Part shown: positions 22,818-38,566 of the stretch, piece by piece | Position numbering within the stretch: position 1 is the stretch's first letter | Layout of the letters: each line of letters begins with the position of its first letter | NCBI RefSeq assembly: GCF_004765815.2 | Contig: NZ_ML974128.1 | Span: 563,077 to 627,076 of the forward strand | Direction of reading: 5' to 3' | DNA from: Halorussus salinus | GTDB taxonomy: Archaea; Halobacteriota; Halobacteria; Halobacteriales; Haladaptataceae | Length of the DNA stretch: 64,000 nt | Translations under genes and position numbers: made by a program | The notes under the pieces: generated by a model | The model's input: the letters and a program-made list of their open reading frames with translations, nothing else | What the model was told of the DNA's origin: nothing | Databases searched by the model: none

Positions 22818-23021
22818 CTACCCCCAGTAGGGGTTCGACAGCTCGCGATTCGGCGACGACCCGAAGCGACTCGCCGCGGCGACCGCGACGACGAGGAGGG
22901 CGACGACCGCGAGCGCCGGGATGCTTCCGAGAACTACACCGACCAGTCCGACGAGCGCGCCGACCGCGACGAACGCGACCGTCGCGACCGCCAGCGCGCC
23001 GAGGAGTCTCGACCAGTTCAT
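22818..23021 (-). CDS. Small two-helix membrane protein
   Basis: A 67-residue protein starting MNWSRLLGAL. Two hydrophobic helices (LLGALAVATVAFVAVGALVG and IPALAVVALLVVAVAAA) are joined by a short turn, and a polar tail ends in SNPYWG. I chose the ATG at 23021; longer frames overlap the divergent gene's start region. It shares a 61-base divergent gap with the DUF2064 gene. No function is known. Confidence 0.6.
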   Translation of the reverse strand: MNWSRLLGALAVATVAFVAVGALVGLVGVVLGSIPALAVVALLVVAVAAASRFGSSPNRELSNPYWG

Positions 23022-23082
23022 ACGCGAACGAAGGGTGGCGCGGATTAAAAGCTTCAAGGGTCGCGCCCACCGAGAGGGAGGT

Positions 23083-23859
23083 ATGACCGTCATCGCCGTC
23101 TTCGCCGACCCGCCGCGACCGGGACTGGTACTGCCGAACCTCGCCGACTCCTCGCCGGTCTCCGACGAGGAGGCGGCCGACCTCTACGCCGCAATGGTGA
23201 AAGACACGATGCGCGCGGCCGAGCGCAGCGGCGGCGAACTGCTGGTCAACTACCGCGACGACGAGACCCTGCCAGACGAGTTCGCCGACGCGGGCGAGGA
23301 GAGCGCCGAAGCCGAGGTCCGCGCGCTCGCGGCCGACGCGCTCGAAGACCCCGACGAGGCCCGCTTCGAGGTGCAGGTCGGTTCGACGTTCTCGGCGCGC
23401 GCCGGAAACACCGTCTCGCACCTGCTCGGCGAGGAGGACGCCCAGTCGGTCGCGGTCGTGCCGGGGACCGCGCCGATGCTCACGCGCAAGGAAATCGACA
23501 GCGCCGCGATGAAGCTCCGGCGCAACGAGGTCGTCCTCGGCCCGAGCGAGCGCGGCCGGGTCCACTTCGCGGGCTTCACCGAGACCGTGGACTTCGAGGA
23601 GGCCTACGCCACGCCAGCCATCGAAACGCTGACCCGGCGCGCCGCGGACGCGGGCCACGAGGTCGGGTTCCTGCCGACCGCGACCAGCGTGGCCACGGGC
23701 GCGGACCTCGTCTCGCTGGTGCCGGAACTCAACGCCCGCGTCACGGCCGAGCGCATCGTGCCGGGACACACCGCGGGCCTCCTCCGGGAGTGGGGCCTGC
23801 GCGTCGAGGAGGGCGACGCTGGCCCCGAGTTGACCCGAACGCAGACCGACAGTTCTTAG
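23083..23859 (+). CDS. DUF2064-like (glycosyltransferase-fold) protein
   Basis: A 258-residue protein. MTVIAVFADPPRPGLV at the start, the VVPGTAPML block near residue 125 and VVLGPSERGRVHFAGF near 150 match DUF2064/cofC-like nucleotidyl- or glycosyl-transferase folds. Relatives act in sugar or cofactor activation, but the substrate here is open. The ATG at 23083 is preceded by GAGGGAGG, a strong ribosome site that decides this start over longer frames. Its stop lies 25 bases before the 48-bp att repeat, so it is the last chromosomal gene left of the integrated element. Confidence 0.7.
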   Translation: MTVIAVFADPPRPGLVLPNLADSSPVSDEEAADLYAAMVKDTMRAAERSGGELLVNYRDDETLPDEFADAGEESAEAEVRALAADALEDPDEARFEVQVGSTFSARAGNTVSHLLGEEDAQSVAVVPGTAPMLTRKEIDSAAMKLRRNEVVLGPSERGRVHFAGFTETVDFEEAYATPAIETLTRRAADAGHEVGFLPTATSVATGADLVSLVPELNARVTAERIVPGHTAGLLREWGLRVEEGDAGPELTRTQTDSS

Positions 23860-23884: not shown

Positions 23885-23932
23885 CGCGGTGGGATGGCAG
23901 AGCGGCCTATTGCGCCTGCCTTGAAAGCAGGT
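23885..23932 (+). repeat. attL: 48-bp copy of the tRNA-Ser 5' part
   Basis: Identical to 38311-38358 over 48 bases, from just before the acceptor strand through the anticodon stem. After the repeat, ATCC-TCAC-GGAT could be a tRNA-Ser variable arm, but no T arm or 3' acceptor strand follows (no GTTCAAAT, no TCCCACC), so this copy cannot fold as a tRNA. Confidence 0.9.
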
Positions 23933-24082
23933 ATCCTCACGGATTCCTGTGGCCCCGTGAAATCACCCGATAAGCGCCTTCTACCTTGTGTATAGTTGAT
24001 TCGCACTTATAAAATTATAGGTTCATAAGTCTGACCTATGTTGTTCCTATCTTTAACTCGGTAAGCGTAATTTAGGGGTGGA

Positions 24083-24214
24083 TTGCCGGTCTGGTTTATA
24101 TGTGTCCATAGGTTTGGACTGAATAGCCACCAAATCCCGTCGCCGTCCGTTGCTATTGCACTCGAAGACGGCCACGTAGAGAACTTCCGCTGGCGTGACC
24201 TGCGTCCACCGTGA
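24083..24214 (+). pseudogene. Possible 3' remnant of a small gene
   Basis: The plus-strand frame ending at the TGA 24212-24214 reads IPSPSVAIALEDGHVENFRWRDLRPP, which looks like real protein, with codon use like its neighbours. No ATG or GTG occurs in frame before it, and the upstream DNA is AT-rich non-coding. It may be the remains of a gene cut when the element was assembled. The extent to the left is a guess. Confidence 0.35.
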
Positions 24215-24295
24215 CGCCCTTCAGATTCCGAGACACTGGCAACCAGCGTGTCCAACGCCGAAGGATAATTGTCGGCGTGCTACCAACAGATAGGC

Positions 24296-24442
24296 ATGAG
24301 CCACGACCAGAACCCACCTCTCCGTATTCCCGAAGATATGGATGGTGTCTACGAGATTGCCGAGGAAGAAGAGGAAGACGGAATGACCGATGAACAGCGT
24401 CGTAATCTCGCTGAAGCACAGGTTCGCCTTCGGGGATTCTGA
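24296..24442 (+). CDS. Small acidic protein (48 residues), unknown
   Basis: MSHDQNPPLRIPEDMDGVYE followed by an acidic run and the helix DEQRRNLAEAQVRLRGF. The composition is haloarchaeal and the frame ends 35 bases before the next small gene. The first part (LRIPEDMDGVYEIAEEEE) looks like a small accessory protein seen next to zinc-ribbon mini-genes, but I cannot name a family. Confidence 0.5.
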   Translation: MSHDQNPPLRIPEDMDGVYEIAEEEEEDGMTDEQRRNLAEAQVRLRGF

Positions 24443-24476
24443 CCCGGACGAGTAGCCCGACGACGCCCACCGACCC

Positions 24477-24629
24477 ATGACCCCCGACGAATCGTCACTC
24501 GGTCGCTGTCCGGACTGCGGCGAGCCTATTCCCTCTGCGTGGCTCCTTGTCGAGTACGAACGGGCCGACGGTACCGAGGGCGTTTGGGCGGAGTGTCCAT
24601 CTTGTGAGGATGTTGTAGCGCCGGAGTAG
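24477..24629 (+). CDS. Small zinc-ribbon protein (50 residues)
   Basis: Two CPxC knuckles, CPDCGEP (residues 11-17) and CPSCED (40-45), are separated by a beta region (AWLLVEYERADGTEGVWAEC), a minimal zinc ribbon. It resembles haloarchaeal mini-proteins listed as putative zinc-binding DUF families, which are widespread in plasmids and proviruses. Function unknown; regulation or RNA contact is possible. The ATG at 24477 is the only good start. Confidence 0.65.
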   Translation: MTPDESSLGRCPDCGEPIPSAWLLVEYERADGTEGVWAECPSCEDVVAPE

Positions 24630-24685
24630 TCGGAGACAGCAGAACCAAGTGTTCTCCCTGTGCTACCTCGTCCAAGACCTCACTG

Positions 24686-25099
24686 ATGGAAATTTCCGAC
24701 CAACTGCGCTGTCTGTTCTCTGCCACTGTCGAAGAGCAAGACGAGTCGTTTGTCGTTGAAGTCCCCGAGCAAGAGATTCGCCTTGGCGACCTTCAGGCGG
24801 GCGAGACGTACCGTGTGGCCGTTCTGCCGTCACCTGCGACTGACGACACCAGCGACACGTACACTGAATCAGAGCGCGAGCGTGGCCCACCGAAGCCACC
24901 GGTTGAGGAAGGTGAAGAGCGAACGGTTGAAATCGAGGATATAGGTGACCAAGGCGACGGTATCACTCGGGTCGAGCGTGGTTTCGTCGTCATTGTTCCC
25001 GACACCGAACAGGGCGAGCGCGTTACCGTCGAGATTACTGATGTTCGTGAGAACGTCGCCTTCGCGGAAGTTATCGAGCGCATGAGTTACTACGAATAG
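24686..25099 (+). CDS. TRAM domain protein
   Basis: A 137-residue protein. Residues about 76-137 are a TRAM domain (EIEDIGDQGDGITRVERGFVVIVPDTEQGERVTVEITDV...FAEVIE), a small beta-barrel that binds RNA and is fused to tRNA/rRNA modification enzymes or occurs alone in methanogens and haloarchaea. Stand-alone archaeal TRAM proteins have been proposed to act as RNA chaperones. The N-terminal 75 residues include a polar, poorly conserved linker. It converges with the HEPN-candidate gene two bases later. Confidence 0.85.
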   Translation: MEISDQLRCLFSATVEEQDESFVVEVPEQEIRLGDLQAGETYRVAVLPSPATDDTSDTYTESERERGPPKPPVEEGEERTVEIEDIGDQGDGITRVERGFVVIVPDTEQGERVTVEITDVRENVAFAEVIERMSYYE

Positions 25100-25101
25100 T
25101 A

Positions 25102-26022
25102 TCAGCGTTCGAGTTCCTCAGTAACATCCATTTTCTGTAGTTCGATGGCTGTTTCAATCACAAAATCAAGGCAGAACTCAACATCATCTTCAGTAATTTC
25201 CACCTCGTCTGGCAGGTCCGGAACATCAACACCGCCACCAATGCTACGTAGAACTCGCGGAGTTAGCGAATCGAACTTTGAATACCGTCTGTAATCTATT
25301 CCAAGACTAAGAACCTGAATCGCGTCTTCGATGGCGTCTATCGAACTATTCACTCTCTCAACAAACTTTTCCATATCTCTACCGAACTCGCGCATATCTC
25401 TGCTTGAAGGCGAGATTCCAACAGAATCATCGATAGAAAATGGTTGGTATCCAAACTCTTCTTGCATTCGTTGATTGTATTCAAAGAATAGGTTATCGTA
25501 GGCGATAGCGAGTTCCTTTATTGCTTCTTTCCTCTGTCCATCTGCAAGATACTCTTTTGCCTGCTGTAGTGTCTCTCTTGTACTGTCGTATTCGACCAAA
25601 GATACCATTGAAATATCGGTGTACTCAATTCCAAATACCTTCGGAGTGTTCTCTTCGAAGAAATCTCGAACAGCCACGCTAAAAGACTGAATATCTGCTG
25701 AATTGGGCCTTGTACCTTGATGTTTTAGGTTCACTCTCGAATCATTCAAACGACGCATTGCTGGTTTCTGCCCGAGTTCTTGTTCATCCGGAAGTTCGTT
25801 ACCAATGATTTCCCAATATTCCATGAAGTTCACATGGCTCTTTCCGGCACGGTGTGAGTTCAGGTACTCAGCGGCGTGTTGTAGAAACAACTCAACTGCG
25901 TCGTGAAACGATAAAATAGCCGTTGCCGCCATTGGCTGTGGTTCCTGTGCCTGTTCTTCACCCATCCTGACGAGGTATTTATTGAACGACAGCCGTTCAA
26001 TAGTGGTTTTGTTGAGACTCAT
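25102..26022 (-). CDS. Candidate HEPN-type protein, unknown function
   Basis: A 306-residue, mostly helical protein with markedly lower GC than its neighbours. The segment RVNLKH at residues 96-101 fits the RX4-6H active-site pattern of HEPN ribonucleases, placed after two predicted helices (AATAILSFHDAVELFLQHAAEYL and the FMEYWEIIGNEL helix) as in that fold. The remainder has no motif I recognise. HEPN nucleases often serve in toxin-antitoxin or virus defence. The call rests on one motif plus context, so it is tentative. Located alone on the minus strand. Confidence 0.55.
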   Translation of the reverse strand: MSLNKTTIERLSFNKYLVRMGEEQAQEPQPMAATAILSFHDAVELFLQHAAEYLNSHRAGKSHVNFMEYWEIIGNELPDEQELGQKPAMRRLNDSRVNLKHQGTRPNSADIQSFSVAVRDFFEENTPKVFGIEYTDISMVSLVEYDSTRETLQQAKEYLADGQRKEAIKELAIAYDNLFFEYNQRMQEEFGYQPFSIDDSVGISPSSRDMREFGRDMEKFVERVNSSIDAIEDAIQVLSLGIDYRRYSKFDSLTPRVLRSIGGGVDVPDLPDEVEITEDDVEFCLDFVIETAIELQKMDVTEELER

Positions 26023-26118
26023 TTCAATCGGGTCAAAAGGAATACCGTAGGTCTGAATATTGAATGTACTGGCGTTTGAGAGATTATCGAATCAATTACT
26101 CGCACGAATCACGTAGTT

Positions 26119-26502
26119 ATGTACATGGCCTTCAGGCTCTCCGAAGACGATATCCCCGACGAAAAACCACACCGTGACCGCGAGTTTCTGTGGAAGTGCT
26201 ACCACGAACGCGGGCTGTCCTCTCGAACTATCGCCTACGAACTCGGTGTCTCAAAGAGCCGCGTGACGGTTCACGCCGAGCGCTTGGGGGTACTCCGACC
26301 GTGGCGTCATGAGGAAACCCTAAGGCGTCTGTACGTCGAAGAAGGCCTGTCAGCGGACGAGATAGCGGCCCGCGACGGGTTCGACTGTAGCCCCGTGACG
26401 GTGCGAAAGTACCTCTCTCAATACGGCCTGACCAATGAAGACTCCGACGACGTGACCTATGGCCGATTGGACGAACTCGGACGAGGTGTGACGAGTCAGT
26501 AG
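26119..26502 (+). CDS. Two-HTH DNA-binding protein
   Basis: About 127 residues (125 from the second ATG at 26125). Two helix-turn-helix units are visible: GLSSRTIAYELGVSKSRVTVHAERLGV (split across residues 34-60) and GLSADEIAARDGF followed by a recognition helix VTVRKYLSQYGL (75-103). Such tandem homeodomain-like units resemble resolvase C-terminal or phage regulator domains. It diverges from the HEPN-candidate gene and may regulate it and the following unknown gene. Confidence 0.7.
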   Translation: MYMAFRLSEDDIPDEKPHRDREFLWKCYHERGLSSRTIAYELGVSKSRVTVHAERLGVLRPWRHEETLRRLYVEEGLSADEIAARDGFDCSPVTVRKYLSQYGLTNEDSDDVTYGRLDELGRGVTSQ

Positions 26503-26544
26503 CAAACCAGTAATTTCAACACGGTAGTATGTTATTCGTGGCGT

Positions 26545-27102
26545 ATGTCCGAGACACCTGACAGCAGTGTTAGAATCTACGTCAATATCCCGGTTTACAA
26601 ACAAGACGAAATGGAAGGTGTTCACGAGGTTGAGACAGGCGAAGCAGATGGTCTGATTAGTACTCGCGGAGACGCTGAATTTCCTGATGAAACAGTTCAA
26701 GTACAGAGGGAAGCCGACCAAATAGGTCGATTCACCACTGATATTTTCATTGGACAGACCCCAAACCCGCTCAAGTACTTGGGCCTCTCGGCTATGGACG
26801 AAATGTCACGGTTAGATGTAAACCAGAAACACAATATCCTATCCGTTTACGCTCCGGATACGGAGTGGAAGTACGACCAGTGGAATGAGCAATTCGATGA
26901 AACAATCCATGTCCGAGGAACGGCTGAAGACCTGTTGAAGTGTGCGAAAAGCCGAGCCGAGGAAGAAGATGAAAAAGAAGTAGACGACGTACTCCTTGTT
27001 TGGGAAGCACATCCCCACTTCAACTCGGAGGAAGTTCGTGGTGCGCTGGTTGAATATGATAAAGGATATGCCGACCAGTTTTCTGACGCCGATTATCGCT
27101 AA
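26545..27102 (+). CDS. Uncharacterised acidic protein
   Basis: A 185-residue soluble protein of low GC content, with no signal or membrane segment. It opens with a beta strand RIYVNIPVY, has a central helical block and ends with an acidic region after LLVWEAHPHF. I recognise no family. It starts 42 bases after the HTH gene on the same strand and is probably co-transcribed with it. The next supported plus-strand gene is more than 3 kb away. Confidence 0.55.
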   Translation: MSETPDSSVRIYVNIPVYKQDEMEGVHEVETGEADGLISTRGDAEFPDETVQVQREADQIGRFTTDIFIGQTPNPLKYLGLSAMDEMSRLDVNQKHNILSVYAPDTEWKYDQWNEQFDETIHVRGTAEDLLKCAKSRAEEEDEKEVDDVLLVWEAHPHFNSEEVRGALVEYDKGYADQFSDADYR

Positions 27103-28039
27103 TCACATCCCGCCGAATAACTCGATTCACCACCGTTCGGGCAAGGTAAAGAGCGAGTCGCCCACGCTGACAACATAAGAATACTAAAGAGCCATGCCCC
27201 AACGACGCCGCCACAACCGCCTTGTTCAGACGACCCTCGCCAACCTATTCTCGGCTCGCAGTCCATCGCTCTCGCCCTCGAATTACGACTCTGCCGTGTG
27301 GCCCACACCGACGAGGACGACGCTCACGACGACTATGCGGTCCGTATGAGCCGCTATCGGGCTTCACGAGCGCATGAAACTACTGCCGATTCACCCCCTC
27401 TGAAAATGACTGTCAGAGTCAGAGCCGGAGCCGTTCAGACTTTTCGACACCGCTCGAACCCCACCCTACCCCCGGCTCTCCCGGCCCGACCGACCCGGAA
27501 CCCCGTCCTCTACCGGGCCAGCCACCCGCCCTCTCGCACCCCTACCAGCCCACCCGCTCCTACGGGGTACCCCACTGGCCCCCTCTGTAGAGCGTTCGTG
27601 CGGTACCTGTACCTGCTGTGCGAGTGTGTAGGAAAGTGGACGAGTCGGACTGGCCCCACCAGAGAGACGGCCCCTGTGGCCCGTAGCAGGCCGCTACTTT
27701 CTGCTAATTCTGCCTTAGAAAGACTTAGCGGGCCGTAGAGGGGTAGAAATGCCCTGTTCTACGGGTGGGTTTCGAGTGAAGGATACCGCGATAGCCGACG
27801 AACCAAAAATGACCAATCCACCCTCTCCCCATCCCCCATTTAGGAATGACACGGGATACGTCGCTCACAAACCCTGAAGGGGACTCCGACACCTTAATCC
27901 GAGAGTCGCTACCGTCAAATAACTCTCGGTAATCCCCACACCGACTTCTATTAACAGGGTCGAACGCACCCTCTAATAACAACTATGAGTAGGGCTGTTC
28001 GGACGCTATAATATATTCTGATATGGGTATCACTGTGAG
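27103..28039. other. Gene-poor stretch with a C-rich top strand
   Basis: 937 bases without a convincing gene. From about 27430 to 27590 the top strand is very C-rich, so the complementary strand carries many GGG/GGGG runs. From 27840 to 28020 it becomes AT-richer, with the inverted arms CCGAGAGT/ACTCTCGG (27898-27933) and an AT-rich CTATAATATATTC (28007-28019). The block lies at the 3' side of the helicase-like gene and could hold replication or transcription signals; this is inference. A GTG frame at 27298-27738 ends in Pro-rich sequence that looks non-coding. Confidence 0.5.
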
Positions 28040-29836
28040 TTATTCTGCGTCGTTCCACACATACGCCGCCGCGTCGGGAAGGTCGTCGTACTTGGTCACG
28101 AATCCGTTTTCTGCGAGTGCTTCGGTCTTCTTTCGGGCGCTTCGTTTCCGGACACTCGTTTCGGTAGCGATTTCGTTCACTGTACCACCTGCGCCCCCTT
28201 CGTCCTGAAGATACTCGGCTACCTCTCGGGCGTCTTCGCTGAACAGAACGAGGTGTGCCGCTTTACTCGGCACCCAATCGGGAAGCGCCGCCGTGTTCAC
28301 GTAGACCGTCGTAGGTTTGGTATCTCGTCCGAACCGAAGCACGTCCTGAAGCGTCTGCCGCCTCATATGTCGGTGAATCTTGTTGCCGAACTCGCCGTAA
28401 CTCTTCGCTGTCCCGCGCCTACCGTTTGACACGACCGTCTCACCCGCATACGCCCCCCACTTCTTGATGTATGGGTCGCCGTAGTGCCGAGAGCCGGAGA
28501 CGAACCCGAGGTGCTTGTTCTTGAAGCCTTGGTAACTCAAGACGTTGCTGAAGTTCCGAGGGGTACCAACGTAGTCGAACAACTCCCCGTCGTTGGACTC
28601 CGGGTACACGTTGTCAATCGCCTTCTTGCTCGTGATTAAGCCGGGGTTCTCGCCTTCTCTCCGGTGTATCCAATGCGCGATTTGGGTATCTTTCGGAGCC
28701 GTGATACGCCCGTCTGCGTCGTTCTGGTAGGGTTTCAGGTCGTCATTCGTCCGAATGATGGTGTGGTTCAGCACGTCCGAGACGTACTTTCGCTTCTCGT
28801 GGTCTTCGAGAACGTCACAGTGCGTAAGGTCAAGGCCGGTCGCTATTCGCCACATCGCGGGCGTCGGAGTGCCGTCCAATCCGAGGAAGCCGTCAGCAAT
28901 CTCGAAGTTCGGTGGATTGAGAAGGTACATCGTATCTTCGTCTCGGTCGCGCACGCAGATGGCGTTCGAGTTGATACCCGAGGCGTCGATACCATGCAAG
29001 TCAGCCCAATCCGAGACGGGTAGCCGTTCCCACCCGTTCCCCAACTCATGCCCTGCCAGTAGCACGAACGTCAAAGTCGGGGCGAGCGCGTGGTACTCTT
29101 CGTTCGGAGATTTGAGAACGTTGTTGGTGTCCTGATAGAGGCCGTGTTCTCGGAACCAATCGAGGGCGTCGGCGTACCTGTCGCTGTCGGACTGTGCGTT
29201 CAGCACGTCCTGATAACTGTCGTAGCGTAGGGTGACATTCTGAAGGAAGCGGTCAACGACCTGTTCCGGGTTCTCGAACTCGGTTTCAAACTCACTCACC
29301 GAAAATTCGTCTTTGACGGCGAAGCGCCCCTTCAGGTACTCGTCCCGGTAGGCATGGCTCGGGTCGCCAATCAGAACGTCGGGTGCTGACGGGTCGAAAT
29401 CAAGCAAGTCAAGATACCTACAGTCCTCGCCGCACCGTATATCGTCAAGTCGGTCATGGATTTCCTGACCGCCGACGCCGTTCTCGTATGCCTTCACAGC
29501 CCGCCAGTCGTAGTGGTCTTGGTCGCTCTTATCGAACGCAGGACAGTGTTTGTGCGGGGTCGGGATACACTTATGAGTGAGTCCGAACTGGTCGCACAAC
29601 TCTTCAGCGTCCCTCTTTAGGTAGTCTCGGGACGCAAGATAGAGTAACAGCGTTTCTGTCTCACTGGCAACGTTCAGGGACGAATAGGACTTCCCCGAGA
29701 CGGGCAGTGCTTCGAGTAACACATTCCCGTGTCCGTTGTAGATTCCTCTGATTGCTTGTTCCACGCGGTGTCGAACGTCAGACAAGGTGGGTGGCCGATA
29801 CGGTGGATTCTTACTGACAGCGTTCGTACTTTGCAT
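28040..29836 (-). CDS. Helicase-like replication protein with C-terminal winged helix
   Basis: A 598-residue protein. A Walker-A-like loop ALPVSGKS lies at residues 43-50, and VLIGDPSHAYRDEY near 154-167 sits where helicases carry DEAD/DEAH. Four cysteines between these motifs (C90, C98, C135, C139) recall the metal-cluster insertion of XPD/DinG helicases. The C-terminus (about 535-598) has a winged helix (TVNEIATETSVRKRSARKKTEALAENGFV). I infer a plasmid-type helicase or initiator. The protein is the only replication candidate in the element. It stands alone on the minus strand, with a long 5' gap. Confidence 0.6.
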   Translation of the reverse strand: MQSTNAVSKNPPYRPPTLSDVRHRVEQAIRGIYNGHGNVLLEALPVSGKSYSSLNVASETETLLLYLASRDYLKRDAEELCDQFGLTHKCIPTPHKHCPAFDKSDQDHYDWRAVKAYENGVGGQEIHDRLDDIRCGEDCRYLDLLDFDPSAPDVLIGDPSHAYRDEYLKGRFAVKDEFSVSEFETEFENPEQVVDRFLQNVTLRYDSYQDVLNAQSDSDRYADALDWFREHGLYQDTNNVLKSPNEEYHALAPTLTFVLLAGHELGNGWERLPVSDWADLHGIDASGINSNAICVRDRDEDTMYLLNPPNFEIADGFLGLDGTPTPAMWRIATGLDLTHCDVLEDHEKRKYVSDVLNHTIIRTNDDLKPYQNDADGRITAPKDTQIAHWIHRREGENPGLITSKKAIDNVYPESNDGELFDYVGTPRNFSNVLSYQGFKNKHLGFVSGSRHYGDPYIKKWGAYAGETVVSNGRRGTAKSYGEFGNKIHRHMRRQTLQDVLRFGRDTKPTTVYVNTAALPDWVPSKAAHLVLFSEDAREVAEYLQDEGGAGGTVNEIATETSVRKRSARKKTEALAENGFVTKYDDLPDAAAYVWNDAE

Positions 29837-30198
29837 TGTCGTTCACGTCCACGACAGGGGAACGGGCCAGCCCGCCAAGGTCGCCCTTCCCTCTTCCTCG
29901 CAACTAACTGATTAGCGGTGCGTTTCGTGTGGTTGGTTCACCTTCCTTCTCCGTACATTAAAACTGTCGCACAGGCGTACCTCAAGGCTTCACGCTCGCG
30001 TGTAGAATTTCGCGCTGGTAGGGATAATAGCGAGTATCGGACTCTCGATAGGGGTATCAGAACACTCTCTGAATTGACCGACTAGCCGAGAGAGGAAACA
30101 CGCAGATAGGTTCGACAACCTCGCGTCGGTGTCAAGTGGGGCCGCCGGAATCCTTTTGATATTTCTTGCCGATAATATGACATAGAGGTGGCCCGCCA
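29837..30198. other. Divergent gap between helicase-like and HAD genes
   Basis: 362 bases. A TTTTAATG-type box for the minus-strand gene is at about 29958-29965, and AT-rich GATATTTC/ATAATATG (30157-30180) precedes the plus-strand gene. No gene is supported. Confidence 0.5.
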
Positions 30199-30798
30199 GT
30201 GAGCAACGCTGTAGATACGACGACTCGGGTCGTGTTGTGCTTCGACCGTGACGACACCCTTTCGGTCAACCCGCACCCGGAACACCGAGCGGTGCCGATA
30301 GGGTACGTCCAATGGTACGCGCACGAACTCGAAATTCCGGTTTTCGCAACGGGCAACCAGCATTTACGCACCGAGGCGAAGATTCCGGGGATTCGAGAAG
30401 CCGAGCGGCTGTGGGAAGAACTCGAAGGGGACGAGTACGAGTACGAAAACTCGGAGTTCGAGAACCACATCAAGCCACGCCGCCGGGACGGTCTTCGACT
30501 GATTCAGGACGTGTATCAAGAAGCGTTCCCCGACGAGGACTTCCGGTTTGTCGTCGTTGACGACGCGGATGTGAGCGACTTGGAAGAGGAAGGGCCGTGG
30601 ACGTATTACGCTCCGTGGGAGTTCGTGGCCGCTGTCGAATCCGGCGACTTCGCACTCGAAGAACCCCCATCGGACGCCTACCGGAACGACGGTGTGCCGT
30701 TCAACTCGACTGACCAACCGGATTTCGAGTACGACCAGAAGCGGGAACTCCGGCAGATACAGAAGAGGTTGCGTACCCCCGTCGGTTCAGGCCAATAA
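30199..30798 (+). CDS. HAD-superfamily phosphatase-like protein
   Basis: A 199-residue protein from a GTG. All HAD motifs are visible: Asp16 and Asp18 (CFDRDDTL), Thr51 (FATGN), Lys92 (HIKPR) and Asp121-Asp122 (VVVDDADV). The family transfers phosphate through an aspartyl intermediate. The cap region is very small and acidic, so a macromolecular or large substrate is conceivable. It lies 160 bases before the type IIG gene on the same strand. The protein is well conserved in its core, which argues for an active enzyme; substrate unknown. Confidence 0.7.
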   Translation: MSNAVDTTTRVVLCFDRDDTLSVNPHPEHRAVPIGYVQWYAHELEIPVFATGNQHLRTEAKIPGIREAERLWEELEGDEYEYENSEFENHIKPRRRDGLRLIQDVYQEAFPDEDFRFVVVDDADVSDLEEEGPWTYYAPWEFVAAVESGDFALEEPPSDAYRNDGVPFNSTDQPDFEYDQKRELRQIQKRLRTPVGSGQ

Positions 30799-30958
30799 AT
30801 AGAGCGACCTACCAGTCGGGCCTGAACAGGGCAGGTATGTTTCGATAATCTCGCTTTCCTCGTTGACCGACGTGTAGTAATTCAGCGTTCGCCACTTGTT
30901 CCAAATCTTTAACCCGATTTGCTTGGTTGGGTTGAAACATCCCTTCGGTGTACGTCAT

Positions 30959-33900
30959 ATGCCACCTGCCACTACATCTACCTCGCAAACTGAGTTCGTT
31001 CAGGAAGCCTTCGAGACGACCGTCGAAGCCGACGACGAGAAGCGGCTTCTCGAAGCCATAGACAACGCTGTATCCCGACTCCGCGAACAGATAGACGACG
31101 ATACCCTCGAAAACATCCTACGGGCTGACGCCGGGTCCTATCGGCTTCGGGGCGGCATGACCCGCGACGGGCTTCAGCCCGAACCCTTCACACAGCAGGC
31201 GGTTATCGAACCACTGCTTTCGGAGTTGGGTCATTCCTTCGATACCGAGGCTGGCGGCTTGTCCGGTGGTCGGACGATGGTCGCGGACTACACTGTCTCC
31301 CTGCGCGACTTCGACACGGATTCGACCCGGCTCCTTATCGAAGCCGAACCCATCAACAAGGACCTTGACTCCCGTGAACACGGTATCGGGCAGGTTCGGG
31401 ACTGGTTGAGCCAACGTGAGTTTGAGTCTGATTTCGGGTTCGCTACCGACGGGCTTCGGTGGGCGTTCGTCCGGTACGACCCCGATTCGTACAGTCACAA
31501 CGTAATCGAAGAGGTGGACCTTCAGCCCGTCTTCCTCGCGCTCTTCGAGAATCAAGTCGGGGCGCGGGAATCTGTCGAAGAAGCCGTCTTCGACGCCGAC
31601 CGCGAACGTGTCGCCAATCTTCTCCGCACCTTCGAGTTCGAGAACTTCGTTTCCATCGCCGTCGAGGCCCGGCAGGTAATCAAGCGAACTCAAGAGGAAA
31701 TCACTGACGAGTTCTACGACGACTACATTCGCTACGTCTTCGGTATCGTGGACGAGGATGAAGAGACGCCGCGCTCGCTGATTGGCGACGGCGTTGTCAA
31801 ACCCGACGGCGCGACCGAGGACGACGCCCGACTGTTCGCCGTCGAATTGATGAATCGGCTCGTGTTCATCAAGTTCCTTGAAGACAAGGCAATCGTTCAC
31901 CCCGACCTGCTACAAACACTCACGGACGCCTACGAAGACGGTATGCACACTGGGTCGCTCTACGACGATTTCATCAAGCCGCTGTTCTACGACGTGATGA
32001 ACGAGAAGCCCGACCAGCGACCGCCGACGGTCCAAGACATTGAGGTGTTCGAGGACATTCCGTACCTGAACGGTGGGCTGTTCCGTCCGTCGCTCGGTGG
32101 GGACGAGTTCGATGAAGAGGACTTCGACGTGCGGAACTCGGTGCTGAAGTCTATTATCGACCTGCTGGAACGATACAGTTTCTCGGCGGGCGGCTCACCG
32201 ACCGACCTTGACCCGAGTGTTCTCGGTAACGTCTTCGAGAAGACGGTGAACTACATCACCAGCGACAACGCGGATACGAACAAGGAACTTGGGGCCTACT
32301 ACACGCCGAGCGAGATTACGCGCTTCTGCGCCGAAGAGACAGTTCGTCCGGCACTACTGGACCGCTTCGGTCGCGTGCTGGTCGAAGAGCGTGACTGGCC
32401 CGAGCCGGAAGTCGAGAACTACGATTCGGTGTACTCGCTCATTGAGGACCTGCCGGGGAATTGGGGGCTGATTAGCGCCCTTCTCGCAGAGGTAGACGAG
32501 TTCCGCGTCGTGGACCCTGCCTGTGGGAGTGGACACTTCCTCACGTCGGTTCTCGAAGAAATCGTCAACGTCCGCAAGGCGCTGTACGCGCAGAACGAGA
32601 ACTACCCGCAGGAATATCGGCTGAAGAAGACAACGGTTCTGAACAATATCTACGGTGTGGACCTGATGGGACCAGCCGTCGAAATCGGCAAACTCCGGCT
32701 GTGGTTGTCCATCATATCGGAGTTGGACGAAGACGTAGTGGACGACCTTGACGACGACGAACTCGCCCTACCGAACATCGTCTTCAACCTGCGTGAAGGC
32801 AACAGCCTAATCGGGTACACTGGTTTCCCCGAGACGACTGACGACGGCGAATACACGCTCGGGAGTTTCACCGAAGACAGCGTTCGGGACCGTTATCAGG
32901 GTATCATAGACGAAATCGAGAAGCACGAGCAAGCGGTGGACACTGACGTTGCCGAAGACCACCGGCAGAAAGCGTTCGAGAAACTACGCGAAGCACGCGA
33001 GGACCTGATTAGCGATATTCACGCAGACTTCGTTGAGGCCGGTATCGAAGGGCTGAATCAGGAGACGGTCGCGGAAATGCAACCGTTCAACTGGGTGCTT
33101 GAGTTCGCTGAAGTCTACGCAGATGGTGGGTTCGACGTGGTTGTGGGGAATCCGCCGTGGGACCGTATCACGCCACAGCGCGACGACTATTTCACCCGGT
33201 TCGATTCCGATTTCCGAACTCTGCTACCCGAAGCAAAACAAGAGCGTCAAGAGGAACTGCTGGAAGACTCCGATATTGCGGAAGGGTGGGAAGAGTACAA
33301 GCGCCAAGTCGAGATTCAAGCGGACTACTTCAATAATTCCGAAGAGTATGAACTTCAGCGTCCAAAGGTAGCCGGTCGAACCTCGGCTACAGAAAATGAC
33401 CTGTCCGCCCTCTTCCTCGAACGAGTCTTTCAGATTGCCCGTGACGATGGTTACGTTGCCCAAGTTCTTCCGGGGGCAATCTTCAATGGCTCTTCCACGA
33501 AAGACCTGCGGCTACACCTTCTCGATGAAGCCGAGATTCAATCGCTCGTGACCTTCGAGAACAAGGGTATCTTCCCCGAAATTGACAACCGCTACAACTT
33601 CGGTACCCTCGTCTTCGAGAACCGTGGGGCCACTGACGAACTGCGTGGAATCTTCCAACAACACGACGTGGGAGTCTTACAACAACTCGAAGAGAGCGCC
33701 CTCTCTATCCCCCGTCGTGTGCTTCGTGACTATTCGCCTGAAGCGGCTATCTTCCCATACGTAGATTCGCAACAGGAAGTCGGTATCCTAAATCAGATTC
33801 TTCAGCACCCGTCAATCTCTGAACGGGTCGGAGAGAGATGGTATGTTGAGCCATATCGGGAACTTGACAGGGGGAATGATGTGGACCGCTTCGTTGAATC

Positions 33901-34807
33901 GGAAGACGAGGGAGAGTACCCGGTTCTCGGCGGAAGCAACATCTACCAGTTCATGTACGACCCGTCGTTCTTGGACGACTTGGAAGGGCCGAAGTTTTGG
34001 GGCGTACCAGAGGACGAAGACCCCGAGTTGAGCGCCAAAAAGCGGATTCGGGAGAAGAGCCTGCCGAAACTCAAACGCGGGATATACGACGCCTTCGATG
34101 GGTCCGGTTCGCAAGTCGGGTTCGTCAATGAACTGCTGGAAGAGCGACGGGGCGAACCACTGTCAGAGGACGACGTACTGCTTGATTGCACGGAATATCG
34201 TATCTCATACCGTGACATTGCCCGTGCCAGCGACGAGCGCACGATGATTGCCTCGGTGCTACCGAAGGGAGTAGTGTGCCACGACAAAGCCCCGACGCTT
34301 CGCCCGTACCGAATCGAACCTGAAGAGGACGACCTTGAGGAACCAACTCTACATGGTGCCTACGAACGGGTCTATTCGGACGAAGAACTGTTCGTCGCCG
34401 TCGGGTTGCTTAACAGCCTGCCGTTCGACTTCCTTATGCGAACGAAAATCGACTCGACTGTCGTCTTCTACAAACTGAAAGAGTCGCAGGCACCCCGCCT
34501 GACGGCTGGTGACGAGTGGTTCGACTACATCTGGAAGCGTGCCGCTCGGTTGAACTGCTACGGCGACGAGTTCGAGGAAATGCGCGACCGGCTCGGTGGT
34601 ATCGAACCGGCGACCGACATGGACGAACGTCGGGAAGTTCAGGCTGAACTCGACGCCGCCGCGTTCCACGCCTACGGCCTTGACCGCGACCAAGCCGAGT
34701 TCGTGCTTGAGGACTTCCACCGGGTTCAGAGTCCCCGTATCATGGACGAGGCGTATTTCGAGACGGTCTTGGACAAGTACGACGAGTTGGCTGAATCGTC
34801 GTCCTAA
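30959..34807 (+). CDS. Type IIG restriction-modification enzyme (Eco57I-like)
   Basis: A 1282-residue protein that joins endonuclease, N6-adenine methyltransferase and target recognition. The methyltransferase SAM motif VDPACGSGHFL is near residues 517-527 and the catalytic NPPW near 730-733. The N-terminal region has a nuclease-like RLLIEAEPINK segment near 125-135, with Glu-Ala-Glu in place of the usual E-x-K. The C-terminal 400 residues should read the DNA site. I start at the ATG 30959; a TTG 21 codons upstream is unlikely. No separate specificity gene is needed or present. It abuts a convergent zinc-protein gene. Confidence 0.88.
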   Translation: MPPATTSTSQTEFVQEAFETTVEADDEKRLLEAIDNAVSRLREQIDDDTLENILRADAGSYRLRGGMTRDGLQPEPFTQQAVIEPLLSELGHSFDTEAGGLSGGRTMVADYTVSLRDFDTDSTRLLIEAEPINKDLDSREHGIGQVRDWLSQREFESDFGFATDGLRWAFVRYDPDSYSHNVIEEVDLQPVFLALFENQVGARESVEEAVFDADRERVANLLRTFEFENFVSIAVEARQVIKRTQEEITDEFYDDYIRYVFGIVDEDEETPRSLIGDGVVKPDGATEDDARLFAVELMNRLVFIKFLEDKAIVHPDLLQTLTDAYEDGMHTGSLYDDFIKPLFYDVMNEKPDQRPPTVQDIEVFEDIPYLNGGLFRPSLGGDEFDEEDFDVRNSVLKSIIDLLERYSFSAGGSPTDLDPSVLGNVFEKTVNYITSDNADTNKELGAYYTPSEITRFCAEETVRPALLDRFGRVLVEERDWPEPEVENYDSVYSLIEDLPGNWGLISALLAEVDEFRVVDPACGSGHFLTSVLEEIVNVRKALYAQNENYPQEYRLKKTTVLNNIYGVDLMGPAVEIGKLRLWLSIISELDEDVVDDLDDDELALPNIVFNLREGNSLIGYTGFPETTDDGEYTLGSFTEDSVRDRYQGIIDEIEKHEQAVDTDVAEDHRQKAFEKLREAREDLISDIHADFVEAGIEGLNQETVAEMQPFNWVLEFAEVYADGGFDVVVGNPPWDRITPQRDDYFTRFDSDFRTLLPEAKQERQEELLEDSDIAEGWEEYKRQVEIQADYFNNSEEYELQRPKVAGRTSATENDLSALFLERVFQIARDDGYVAQVLPGAIFNGSSTKDLRLHLLDEAEIQSLVTFENKGIFPEIDNRYNFGTLVFENRGATDELRGIFQQHDVGVLQQLEESALSIPRRVLRDYSPEAAIFPYVDSQQEVGILNQILQHPSISERVGERWYVEPYRELDRGNDVDRFVESEDEGEYPVLGGSNIYQFMYDPSFLDDLEGPKFWGVPEDEDPELSAKKRIREKSLPKLKRGIYDAFDGSGSQVGFVNELLEERRGEPLSEDDVLLDCTEYRISYRDIARASDERTMIASVLPKGVVCHDKAPTLRPYRIEPEEDDLEEPTLHGAYERVYSDEELFVAVGLLNSLPFDFLMRTKIDSTVVFYKLKESQAPRLTAGDEWFDYIWKRAARLNCYGDEFEEMRDRLGGIEPATDMDERREVQAELDAAAFHAYGLDRDQAEFVLEDFHRVQSPRIMDEAYFETVLDKYDELAESSS

Positions 34808-35080
34808 TCAGGGCCGACTCCGGTCAACGGTCTTGACACCAACCAGCCGCGACCGCCAATACACGGCTTCAACGAGTGCTTCGTCAGCCCCGTCGGTCGG
34901 CAGTCCGATAGTACGACTTCCGCAGTCACACATCACGCGCCGGACGACCCATCCATCGGCGTCGTAGTAGGTCGCGTAGACTACAGCCTTATCGCCCGTC
35001 CTGATACCCCTATTACACCGGTCGCATATGTGGCCCACCTGTACGCCGTTCAGCGCCGCCGCCGGAGACGGTCGGGTCAT
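34808..35080 (-). CDS. Small zinc-binding protein
   Basis: A 90-residue protein with ICDRCNRGI (residues 18-26) and MCDCGS (about 50-55), a split zinc ribbon with CxxC and CxC knuckles. The rest is polar with a C-terminal helix. Function unknown. Its start overlaps the end of the SWIM gene by four bases, so the two are translated together; its stop directly abuts the end of the restriction-modification gene on the other strand. Confidence 0.65.
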   Translation of the reverse strand: MTRPSPAAALNGVQVGHICDRCNRGIRTGDKAVVYATYYDADGWVVRRVMCDCGSRTIGLPTDGADEALVEAVYWRSRLVGVKTVDRSRP

Positions 35081-35502
35081 TCGTCTTCACCCGGCAGGTC
35101 ACGGCGACCGTCGTTGTAGCAGTCGAAACACGGGAAGTCGTGGTCGTCGCACCAGCAATCGTGTTCGTCGGTGTCCTTGGTAGCGAACTCTTCGAGGGTG
35201 ACACCACCGTCAGCACGGACAGGCTGTTCCCCGCTGGCCGCTTCGAGGACTGGCTCTCGAATACCGACGGCCACCATATGCTTACACGCGCCGGGCTGGT
35301 ACTCCCACGCAGGACACGTACAATCCGACGGGATACTGTCCTCGACGTGGACAGTGTACGTGTGGTCGTCGGCGTCCGCGTGGGAGTCGTTGACTACTTC
35401 TACGTCGCCGTCACCGACAACGGTGAACTCGAAGGCCTCCCACTGCGCTCGTTTCTCTACCTGTTCGTCGGACTCAAGTACTTCTAATGCTGATTTGGAC
35501 AT
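35077..35502 (-). CDS. SWIM zinc finger protein
   Basis: A 141-residue protein. The SWIM motif CxCx(n)CxH is CTCPAWEYQPGACKH at about residues 60-74. A second cysteine cluster near the end (HDCWCDDHDFPCFDCYND) could bind another zinc. SWIM domains bind DNA or proteins and are found in MULE transposases, SNF2 proteins and many haloarchaeal mini-proteins. It heads a two-gene operon with the small zinc protein at 34808. Role within the element unknown. Confidence 0.8.
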   Translation of the reverse strand: MSKSALEVLESDEQVEKRAQWEAFEFTVVGDGDVEVVNDSHADADDHTYTVHVEDSIPSDCTCPAWEYQPGACKHMVAVGIREPVLEAASGEQPVRADGGVTLEEFATKDTDEHDCWCDDHDFPCFDCYNDGRRDLPGEDE

Positions 35503-35976
35503 GGCTTTCGACTCCCGAAGGCCACCGCTCGCCTGTACCAGCAGGCGGGCTTTTCGACGCGAATCAAGCCCGAGAAGCGGTCGCCCTCTGTTGATTATTG
35601 GTTCCGTGGTACTATAATACTTGGTAGTTATAATTCTATAAAATAAAATGCGCTACAAGAATTGTTCTCTTTCACACAGCCGCACAGAGCCGCAGAGCGC
35701 ACGTCAAAAAACGACGGTAATAACCACTCGCTCCGCGACGAACGCACTCAAGGCCCTGCTGACGCCGCTCTCACGGCTCACTGGCCTATCTACTACCGTC
35801 GAAAGTTGTGGTAGGAGTGTTCTCTTTCCGGCTTAGGGAATGAATGGGGGCCAGTCCTCGTCGTCAGAGCCTCTGTTGGCTGAGTCGAGGGGTTCCCAAA
35901 CGGTTACATTCGAGTTGACTTTCGTGTTGAAATATACACAAAATCTTTTCCACCATATTATCATTATATCTGGACA
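35503..35976. other. AT-rich gap between divergent genes
   Basis: 474 bases between the SWIM gene and the zinc-ribbon membrane gene. A strongly AT-rich core (35612-35650) contains ACTATAATACTTGG and TTATAATTCTATAAAATAAAA, suited to a minus-strand promoter. Another AT-rich patch at 35926-35970 precedes the plus-strand gene. No gene supported. Confidence 0.5.
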
Positions 35977-36375
35977 ATGGGGAACAAGTACGACGAATTG
36001 GATGAAGATGAAATGGTTGAAGAACACGGAAGATGGGGTGCGTTGAAGAAGTTATTCGGCATGATGGCAGAGGACGCAGATGAAGCACTGGGGGTGTCTG
36101 AACGGGTTGAAGCCCACAAGCGGAAGGCCAACGACAACCCCGTCCACGCTAAATGTTACGAGTGCCATAGTGAACTTGAACACGCCGATGTAGGCCGCTG
36201 TCCTCACTGTGGGTACGACGCGTCATTCACCGGGTCACGGGTGCTGTACTCGGTACTAACCGGACTGTTCGCCATTACGATTATCGGGATCCCCGCCGCC
36301 GTGTTGTTCTACCGCAAAGCACAGAAACTACGGAAAAAAGAGGCTCGTGGTGTAGCAAACAAAGAGTGGAAATAA
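35977..36375 (+). CDS. Zinc-ribbon protein with one or two membrane helices
   Basis: A 132-residue protein. After an acidic helical start it has CYECH...CPHCGYD (about residues 60-80), a zinc ribbon, then a hydrophobic stretch (VLYSVLTGLFAITIIGIPAAVLFY, split by a turn) and a basic Lys/Arg tail. It is likely membrane-bound with the ribbon in the cytoplasm. Function unknown. Expression probably starts from the AT-rich patch just upstream (ATATTATCATTATATC). Confidence 0.65.
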   Translation: MGNKYDELDEDEMVEEHGRWGALKKLFGMMAEDADEALGVSERVEAHKRKANDNPVHAKCYECHSELEHADVGRCPHCGYDASFTGSRVLYSVLTGLFAITIIGIPAAVLFYRKAQKLRKKEARGVANKEWK

Positions 36376-36662
36376 CATCCGCTCCGTTGCGCGTTTGACT
36401 TCTTCGGCTACGAGGGATTAACCTCCTTTCACGAATCTACGTTCAAGTCGTACACAACAACCCGTATTGCTGACTGTTCGGTGGGTGGTCAATGAACAGA
36501 ACTCCCGATTCTACGGAACCCACATAATCCAATTTCGACCGAACAAATAGGAGTTTTTCATTGCTCTGTCTATCGTAATTCGGTACACTACGCCGATTTT
36601 ATTCGATATTTTCATTACCTCGGCTAATGATTTATACGTCCGCCAGTTCTGCTGGTGGATGT

Positions 36663-36968
36663 ATGATACCTGAATACTCGAAGCCCGGTGATACGGTCGT
36701 GAAATGCCCCCGTGGCGGCTATATGTGGCCCTACAGCGGAAACAGTCAGCGTGCCACCTGCCCGTCCTGCGGATACAAGTGCAAGGTACCAGAGAATCAG
36801 AAGGGAATGGTTCTGTCCTGCGAGGACGAGATTCTGGTGGATGTGGATAGGTTCGACCGCACAGTGCGGAGAGCGCTTTCACTCGGGCTGAAGAGAGGCG
36901 ACCGAAACTACCGCAACGGTATCGCAGACGTGTTCCCGAAGAAGGATGGTGGTTCTCGTGAGTTTTGA
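36663..36968 (+). CDS. Zinc-ribbon protein of the plasmid/provirus type
   Basis: 101 residues from the ATG at 36663. The N-terminal half is a zinc ribbon: KCPRGGYMWPYSGNSQRATCPSCGYKCKVP, with CPSC intact, while the first knuckle reads CPRGG where relatives usually have CPxCG, so one zinc ligand may be missing. The C-terminal half is basic and helical. Related haloarchaeal proteins are common in mobile elements and of unknown function. A TTTATA box at 36631-36636 lies 27 bases before the ATG. The downstream mini-gene overlaps its end. Confidence 0.65.
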   Translation: MIPEYSKPGDTVVKCPRGGYMWPYSGNSQRATCPSCGYKCKVPENQKGMVLSCEDEILVDVDRFDRTVRRALSLGLKRGDRNYRNGIADVFPKKDGGSREF

Positions 36969-37062
36969 AGCGCAGTGTCCGTTCTGTGGGACCGCAGGGG
37001 GAGAGTACGACCCGGAGTGCTGGAAATGCGAAACAACGCTATCGCCACCGAACAACGCGTAG
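36946..37062 (+). CDS. 38-residue zinc-knuckle mini-protein
   Basis: From the ATG at 36946 (or a GTG at 36958) the frame reads through QCPFCGTAGGEY to DPECWKCETTL, two CxxC knuckles that would bind one zinc like a rubredoxin-type minimal ribbon. It overlaps the preceding gene by 23 bases in another frame and stops 15 bases before the convergent integrase end. GAAGAAGG before the ATG is a possible ribosome site. The regular knuckles argue that it is a real gene in spite of its size. Confidence 0.55.
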   Translation: MVVLVSFEAQCPFCGTAGGEYDPECWKCETTLSPPNNA

Positions 37063-37077
37063 CGTCCAATTTCGTTA

Positions 37078-38178
37078 TCACCCCATTCTGTCGAGGGCGT
37101 CCCGGCGGTCTTCAACTGGCGCTTGGTCATACTTGGCGGTCGTTCCAATACTCCGATGGCGGAGTTGCGACTGCGCGGCGGCAAGGCCCTCTTCACGCGC
37201 CATGTAGGTCCCGGTCGAGTGCCGAATGGCGTACCAACTTACGTCGCGCTCAATATCCGCGAGGTCACACACAGCGTCGAGGACATACCGGAGCGACGAC
37301 GCACTGTAGGGATTCGAGTGTCGCGTGAGCCAAAGACGGTCGGTGTCCTCGTACTTCTCGTACATCCCACGTTCTTCGAGCCAGCGGGCGAGGTATTCAG
37401 TCGTCTCCCGGCGTAGGCTCACTGTCCAATTATCCTCGTTCTTCGAGGACTCCGCCTCGGGAATACGGAGGGTGGCGTTCTCTACGTCTACCCAATAAGT
37501 TCGGGCGCGACCTACCTCGATAGGTCGAAGGCCCGCGTCGAGCGCGGTGTGGATGATACTCGGATACTTGAAGCCGTTCGCACGCTCCCAATCATCGCGT
37601 GACACTTCGGATGTGGGTTTCCCATACCGACGGGCGAGGAACCGCTTCCACTTCGTTCGTTCCTCGGGTTCGAGCGCGGCATACGCCGGGACAGTCCCGT
37701 ATTCAAGCGCGGCCTCACGAAGCGCGGTTCGCTCGTCGTCCGAGAGGAAGTCTCGGGGTTGTGAGACACCCGACGACGAACTGATGGATATGTCCGGCTC
37801 CCACTCGTCACCTTGGAATCGGAAGTAGGCAAGCAGGGCCAGTTTCGTGTTGTGCAAGTGAGTGCGTGAATACTCGTCGTCGGCCAAGAGCAACGACCGA
37901 AGGTATTCCTCGGCGTCTTCGTGGCTCACATCAATCGTGTACCCGTCTTGCTCCCACAACCCCCGCAGGAACCTGTCGATAATGCCAGCGTAGTTCTGCG
38001 CGGTGTGGTGGGCGTAGCCTTCGAGCGCGTCCGGGTTCTTCCCCTGTCGCGCGAGCCACTTCAGTAACTTCCTGCGATGGCTCTCGTAGGCGACCCGTTG
38101 GCGCTCATTGAGGTAATCGCGTGACGGGCCGGGAATAAGAACGATACCTTCAACTTTCTCGGGTTTGTTCGTACTCAT
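37078..38178 (-). CDS. Tyrosine recombinase (integrase) of the element
   Basis: A 366-residue integrase. Residues about 30-130 are a SAM-like core-binding domain, and 150-366 the catalytic domain. Active-site residues: Arg218 (GLRPIE), Lys246 (SSKNED), Arg319-His320 (WYAIRHS), His341 (LRHRSI) and Tyr350 (AKYDQ). The first histidine of the HxxR motif is replaced by Tyr316. It lies at the right end, reading away from the tRNA, with a perfect 12-bp inverted repeat between its start and attR. It should catalyse integration and excision at the tRNA-Ser repeat. Confidence 0.9.
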   Translation of the reverse strand: MSTNKPEKVEGIVLIPGPSRDYLNERQRVAYESHRRKLLKWLARQGKNPDALEGYAHHTAQNYAGIIDRFLRGLWEQDGYTIDVSHEDAEEYLRSLLLADDEYSRTHLHNTKLALLAYFRFQGDEWEPDISISSSSGVSQPRDFLSDDERTALREAALEYGTVPAYAALEPEERTKWKRFLARRYGKPTSEVSRDDWERANGFKYPSIIHTALDAGLRPIEVGRARTYWVDVENATLRIPEAESSKNEDNWTVSLRRETTEYLARWLEERGMYEKYEDTDRLWLTRHSNPYSASSLRYVLDAVCDLADIERDVSWYAIRHSTGTYMAREEGLAAAQSQLRHRSIGTTAKYDQAPVEDRRDALDRMG

Positions 38179-38193
38179 AGTCCCTGTATGACG

Positions 38194-38282
38194 GCGATTT
38201 CAGCGGTTTCGGGGCGATTCAATCGAGGAACAGTGGAACAGGTCAGTTTCATTGGTTTCGGCCTCGAAGACGCTGAAATCGC
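38194..38282. promoter_or_regulatory. Inverted repeat between integrase start and attR
   Basis: GCGATTTCAGCG (38194-38205) and its exact complement CGCTGAAATCGC (38271-38282) flank 65 bases. The left arm is 16 bases from the integrase ATG and the right arm 29 bases from attR. This position suits an arm-type integrase/excisionase site or an operator for the integrase gene. Confidence 0.6.
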
Positions 38283-38310
38283 ATGACGTGACGGGGACGA
38301 CCACAGACTC

Positions 38311-38358
38311 CGCGGTGGGATGGCAGAGCGGCCTATTGCGCCTGCCTTGAAAGCAGGT
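38311..38358 (+). repeat. attR: 48-bp repeat inside the intact tRNA-Ser
   Basis: Identical to 23885-23932. It supplies the whole 5' part of the tRNA, through the 3' strand of the anticodon stem. Confidence 0.9.
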
Positions 38359-38396
38359 GGCGTCAAGCCTCTTGGGTTCAAATCCCAATCCCACCG
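38314..38396 (+). tRNA. tRNA-Ser(UGA), intact, at the element's right junction
   Basis: A full class II cloverleaf: acceptor GGTGGGA/TCCCACC with discriminator G, D arm GCA...TGC, anticodon stem CCTGC/GCAGG with loop CTTGAAA (anticodon TGA at 38348-38350), a variable arm that can pair GGC/GCC, and T arm TTGGG-TTCAAAT-CCCAA. It reads UCA serine codons. The gene is a mosaic: its first 48 bases are the att repeat, so either the promoter and 5' part come from the element or the 3' part does. A TATTTTT run follows at 38397 and can end transcription. Confidence 0.93.
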
Positions 38397-38400
38397 TATT
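38375..38400 (+). repeat. 26-bp 3' tRNA-Ser repeat, left copy (within the tRNA)
   Basis: GGTTCAAATCCCAATCCCAC plus CGTATT, covering the T loop to just past the tRNA 3' end. It is repeated exactly at 38541-38566. Confidence 0.85.
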
Positions 38401-38440: not shown

Positions 38441-38540
38441 ACCCGTGAGTGCCTAATTCGGTCTCGGATTGAGATTTGAAATAGACGAGTCGCACTCCCG
38501 GAATGGCCCGGAGGGCCACATGCCCGGACCGTCTCGGCGT

Positions 38541-38566
38541 GGTTCAAATCCCAATCCCACCGTATT
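38541..38566 (+). repeat. 26-bp displaced 3' end of tRNA-Ser
   Basis: An exact copy of 38375-38400 without a 5' part, 140 bases beyond the tRNA. It marks a second, 3'-type attachment site and suggests that an earlier element entered here and was almost wholly lost. Confidence 0.85.

Follow-up and report, generated by a model that had tools for sequence, protein, structure and literature searches.

How does an element that integrates across the 5' side of a tRNA gene leave a complete tRNA behind, and which parts of that tRNA then belong to the host? The question is raised by a tRNA-Ser(UGA) locus in the genome of the haloarchaeon Halorussus salinus, contained in the window (the whole stretch of 64,000 nucleotides that was analysed, G000:C2:563077-627076). 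An exact 48-bp direct repeat, CGCGGTGGGATGGCAGAGCGGCCTATTGCGCCTGCCTTGAAAGCAGGT, occurs on either side of an element, and the unit that it bounds measures 14,426 bp. The GC content is mostly 45–59% inside the element and 64–70% outside. With the tRNA numbered so that G1 is position 38314 in the right copy and 23888 in the left copy, the repeat covers tRNA nt 1–45 and 3 bp upstream (Table 1). An earlier note on this DNA had read the locus as an integrated 14.4-kb element bounded by 48 bp of the tRNA 5' side, and the coordinates bear out both the exact repeat and the 5'-type arrangement. In canonical 3'-type islands the repeat is the 3' part of the tRNA and the native promoter is kept, whereas here the repeat is nt 1–45 and the promoter motif is stranded.

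Table 1. Features of the integrated element and its junctions, in window coordinates
Feature	Coordinates	Strand	Evidence
DUF2064-like gene, conserved left neighbour of tRNA-Ser(UGA) at empty sites	22921..23859	+	Pfam; synteny UDG-DUF2064-tRNA-DUF5785
Native tRNA promoter motif ACCGACAnnNCTTAG, stranded before the dead left copy	23845..23859	+	Motif at empty sites
Left repeat copy (tRNA nt 1–45 and 3 bp upstream)	23885..23932	+	
Inferred exchange region, tRNA nt 7–19 (D-arm), left junction	23894..23906	+	Mosaics in related elements
Element-borne tRNA-Ser body with foreign variable arm ATCC-TCAC-GGAT at 23933–23944	23907..23949	+	100% identity to complete tRNAs, G046 and L187–L191
Left inner arm motif CCCCGTGAAATCACCCGATAAGCGCCTTCTACC, putative integrase arm site	23953..23985	.	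TTCTAC at nt 96–97, 13 elements
TRAM-domain protein, cargo common to KK48 element	24686..25099	+	
Protein with PHROG 37995 match	25102..26022	-	
HTH DNA-binding protein	26119..26502	+	
598-aa protein, probable plasmid function	28040..29836	-	~35% identity over 97% to proteins of 9–11-kb haloarchaeal plasmids
Type IIG restriction enzyme-methyltransferase, cargo	30896..34807	+	
SWIM zinc-finger protein	35077..35502	-	
Tyrosine integrase, HSTV-2-like family, divergent from tRNA	37078..38178	-	Pfam PF00589; 45% to HSTV-2; tree
Inner arm GCGATTTCAGCG, inverted copy of right arm	38194..38205	.	Right-end alignment
Right arm GAAGACGCTGAAATCGCATGACGTGACGGGG	38266..38296	.	Conserved ~43 nt before tRNA, elements and remnants
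Element-derived 5' leader of functional tRNA, without native promoter motif	38297..38313	+	
Right repeat copy	38311..38358	+	
Functional tRNA-Ser(UGA), nt 1 to ~7 element-derived, remainder native	38313..38397	+	ARAGORN, Rfam, relatives

The site is empty in 34 distinct relatives, where the conserved upstream gene and promoter are joined directly to a complete tRNA-Ser(UGA). The gene order at these sites is UDG, a DUF2064 gene, the native promoter motif and tRNA-Ser(UGA), followed in many by DUF5785 and uridine kinase. Judged by the left flank, L010 is the closest relative with an empty site. The earlier note had named a 48-bp fragment already present in the left flank as incompatible with its reading; no such separate fragment occurs in any empty site. 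Since the empty sites hold a complete tRNA without this fragment, the insertion is real and the body of the functional tRNA is native. The variable arm of the element-free relatives, GGCGTCAAGCC or GGCGTCATGCC (GGCGTCA(A/T)GCC in most of the genus), is of the right-copy type, so that the comparison proposed in that note finds the native arm equal to the right copy and not to the left. A chance or annotation artefact is ruled out by the empty sites together with the family of elements at the same site.

The two copies of the repeat have different fates. Both ARAGORN and Rfam call a single complete tRNA-Ser(UGA) at the right copy, 3' end included as had been supposed, and no second complete copy was found in the genome; neither calls a tRNA at the left copy. 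Beyond the 48 bp the left copy reads ATCC-TCAC-GGAT-TCCTG, with the continuation TATCCTCACGGATTCCTG. It is 100% identical over 64 bp to a complete tRNA-Ser(UGA) of G046 (L028), a member of another family of the order, and identical over ~62 bp to those of five genomes of the genus Halobellus (L187–L191). The probability that the extra 14–16 bp of match arose by chance is negligible. This identity of 62–64 bp to complete haloarchaeal genes confirms that the left copy continues into a tRNA-Ser variable arm, and the match of the foreign arm to the G046 and Halobellus tRNAs that two different tRNA-Ser sequences are joined there. By these comparisons the arm is foreign to the genus and confined to the dead copy. 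What integration has changed is the 5' leader with its promoter and about the first 7 nt of the tRNA; the variable arm and 3' end are native. The suggestion that the element changes the variable arm or the promoter therefore holds for the promoter and fails for the arm, which the right copy keeps in its native form.

As judged from its predicted genes, the unit is a plasmid-like element with a type IIG restriction enzyme and a tyrosine integrase, integrated at the 5' end of tRNA-Ser(UGA). An element of Salinibaculum sp. KK48 is also ~14.4 kb and uses the same tRNA, and its integrase is 95% identical. The left-end genes are partly common to both elements, and the restriction gene is not. The window element looks like an integrated plasmid carrying a defence gene.

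Downstream of the tRNA, at 38541–38562, there is a third tRNA-like piece consisting of a T-arm and an acceptor 3' strand. It was considered as part of the element and ruled out, being also present in element-free relatives. A palindromic hairpin occurs downstream of tRNA genes at 38466–38562 in the window and at L065, L012, L168 and L312–L332, sometimes in tandem. In its 3' arm the hairpin repeats the T-arm and acceptor 3' strand of the tRNA concerned, and its 5' arm is the complement. Its conserved core is AGTCGCA...GACCGTCT. Twenty of the 21 matches to this core in relatives lie downstream of a same-strand tRNA (Ala, Ser, Gly, Arg, Asn, His or Phe), mostly within 100 nt, and the reversed control pattern gave none. 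A looser pattern has 11 matches in this genome, compared with 0 for the control. The hairpin has no Rfam match and may represent a tRNA-associated mini-element or RNA not described before.

The integrase shares 45% identity over 97% with that of HSTV-2 and contains PF00589, which places it in the HSTV-2-like family, restricted to haloarchaea in this analysis. Its 366-aa reading frame is intact and lies outside the att site. The element may still be mobile. A search of viral contigs with this integrase found no relatives. Of 121 homologs, 98 have a tRNA no more than 600 bp upstream, and the side of the tRNA was labelled by orientation. All 15 of those at tRNA-Ser(UGA) are divergent from the tRNA and face its 5' side; the other 83, at Glu, Gly, Arg, His, Leu, Cys, Met or Asp tRNAs, all share one orientation, with the tRNA 3' end facing the integrase. 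With 15 facing the 5' end of one tRNA and 83 the 3' end of others, polarity has switched within one family. The integrase tree requires one change of label; a 12-member core of the 5'-facing group has support of 100, and the deep node uniting all 15 has support of only 43. The same genome encodes two more integrases of this family (G000:C1:1500344-1501441 and 1486970-1488085), one of them 3' of tRNA-Glu(CTC).

The point of strand exchange can be approached through related elements in which host and element alleles differ. In H. persicum the functional copy has the native CCGGTC..AACCGG stem but G7, and the left copy has A7 with a foreign stem, which brackets the exchange there between nt 7 and nt 30. 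Native sequence runs from nt 19 onward in the functional copies of H. clavatus and G093, making nt 19 the latest exchange point, and from nt 21 in that of G310 (nt 21 at the latest). In G216 and G340 the copy adjacent to the integrase is a tRNA pseudogene whose acceptor 5' strand is not tRNA sequence; tRNA sequence starts at nt 6–7, which puts the exchange at or after that point, and the far copy is complete. With native alleles taken from sister species and no later gene conversion assumed, these mosaics place the exchange at tRNA nt 7–19, in the D-arm; its exact point is inferred. The earlier note had the two tRNA-Ser sequences joined at the repeat; the related elements put the junction within the D-arm and not where the 48-bp repeat ends.

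The extent of tRNA identity in the left copy varies widely, ending at nt 18 (G093), 22 (G310), 30 (G066), 34 (G279), 42 (G092), 44 (HArc-gm2) and 59–62 (Halobellus, KK48 and the window), and covering the whole gene in G389, G216 and G340. The TTCTAC arm is found at nt 96–97 in 13 elements whatever the length of this identity, and at nt 108 in G389. Since the arm stays in place as the identity varies, only the first ~20 nt seem to be needed. The remaining tRNA sequence of the left copy would be element-borne, probably acquired from earlier hosts or gene-converted.

The main alternative is a mirror image of the common anticodon-loop type, in which exchange takes place in the loop and the element restores the whole 5' half, as for pTN3, whose minimal site is nt 2–44 of tRNA-Leu (Cossu 2017, PMC5495485). 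The window repeat spans nt 1–45, HArc-gm2 shares exactly 44 nt and G279 ends at nt 34, in the loop; moreover, the 3'-type relatives in the family, in which the shared part is nt ~34–75 (to the 3' end), exchange at or near the anticodon loop. The left copy of Halobellus salinus (L134, position 2022) has a chimeric anticodon stem, CCGGTC-TTGA-GAGCAGG, and a loop exchange was first read from this species. That reading was dropped after comparison with Halorubrum and Halobellus natives. The chimeric stem needs an older, second recombination in the anticodon region. Against the loop, the native anticodon 5' strand is retained in the functional copies of H. persicum and G093 and a foreign one is found in their left copies, which puts the exchange 5' of nt 30, and G310 and G093 share only 18–22 nt. 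We regard a loop exchange as unlikely. An integrase-independent route, in which a tRNA fragment on the element recombined homologously with the host tRNA, might be suggested by the 62–85 bp of tRNA homology that several elements carry and by patchy mosaics resembling gene conversion. However, the same site is used by elements sharing only 18–22 nt, the integrase always adjoins the tRNA and the arm spacing is constant, which makes this explanation highly improbable. Least credible of all is replacement of the whole 3' part of the host tRNA with a change of variable arm, as the earlier note had envisaged, since a foreign arm does occur in the left copy but only in that dead copy, native arms of the genus equal the right copy, and the empty sites refute it.

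The motif ACCGACAnnNCTTAG is present at about -40 in nearly all of the 34 distinct empty sites, which represent several families, and is absent from all element right ends examined; a motif scan of the element right end found no promoter. On this comparison the conserved promoter has been left 14 kb from the functional gene, with element DNA now in front of it. Element right ends have in common a block, GAAATCGC, that lies ~43 nt ahead of the tRNA, and additional blocks as far as the integrase start. The blocks persist in G016, G006 and G023, remnants with an integrase that is disrupted or survives only as a stub. Their retention fits a role in tRNA expression without proving one. Decayed 5'-type elements of 2.1 kb, 0.8 kb and ~1.3 kb (L138, L139 and L140) keep the right end beside the tRNA, with a broken or stub integrase, as though tRNA expression were the reason for keeping it. 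The promoter is not lost in every member of the clade, since G389, G216 and G340 have a complete tRNA-Ser(UGA) as their left copy, behind the native promoter (loci L260, L262 and L261, respectively; the other copy in G216 and G340 lacks the acceptor 5' strand).

Taken together, these observations make it likely that a clade of integrases recombines at the 5' side of tRNA-Ser(UGA), with exchange in the D-arm and the element supplying the tRNA leader. The core site would be tRNA nt 1 to ~20, with strand exchange at nt 7–19 and arm sites ~43 nt before and ~97 nt after nt 1. The left product would then be the native promoter and first tRNA nucleotides fused to element DNA with a partial tRNA of an earlier host, and the right product a complete host tRNA that has received its leader and first ~7 nt from the element. 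Because integration leaves the native promoter on the left and an element leader on the right, transcription of the host tRNA, apparently single-copy, would have to be supplied by the element.

Use of the tRNA 5' side has precedents. The pTN3-like integrases of Thermococcales have been called unique in archaea for their use of the tRNA 5' half, and the integrase promoter is said to drive expression of the tRNA (Badel 2021, PMC8371274). As there, the attB in the window lies in the tRNA 5' half, and the tRNA is rebuilt but parted from its original promoter. In contrast, pTN3-like integrases are suicidal, being split on integration, and target tRNA-Leu, whereas the window integrase is intact, belongs to another family and appears to exchange in the D-arm. 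It also points away from the tRNA, and the pTN3 account of tRNA expression is therefore not directly transferable. In a thaumarchaeal survey (Krupovic 2019, PMC6563490), CalSub-E1 of 'Ca. Caldiarchaeum subterraneum' is described as one case that uses the 5' region of a tRNA-Ser gene; it is a single case from another phylum, unlike the haloarchaeal clade. In mycobacteriophage tRNA-dependent lysogeny (PMC10865867) the host tRNA is not rebuilt and a complete element-borne tRNA compensates for its disruption. G389, G216 and G340 are alike in outcome, but in the window the junction restores the host tRNA itself, the right copy being complete and the left truncated. Searches of the main text of open-licence papers turned up no 5'-type tRNA att site in haloarchaea. 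Such sites are already known from pTN3 and CalSub-E1, and the haloarchaeal variant is new.

As a tentative proposal, to which we give rather less than an even chance, the clade may have switched from the 3' to the 5' side by exchanging in the D-arm and so taken over the promoter supply of a single-copy tRNA; disordered loss of the element would then be lethal, and the left junction would record the tRNA alleles of former hosts. Of the elements that target tRNAs, nearly all leave the host promoter in place, but the tRNA-Ser(UGA) clade does not. The locus is in this sense a natural test of the expression of an essential tRNA whose conserved promoter has been moved 14 kb away. With sister integrases on the 3' side of other tRNAs, the switch in polarity can be studied within one protein family, and the element-borne tRNA pieces offer a sequence record of past hosts.
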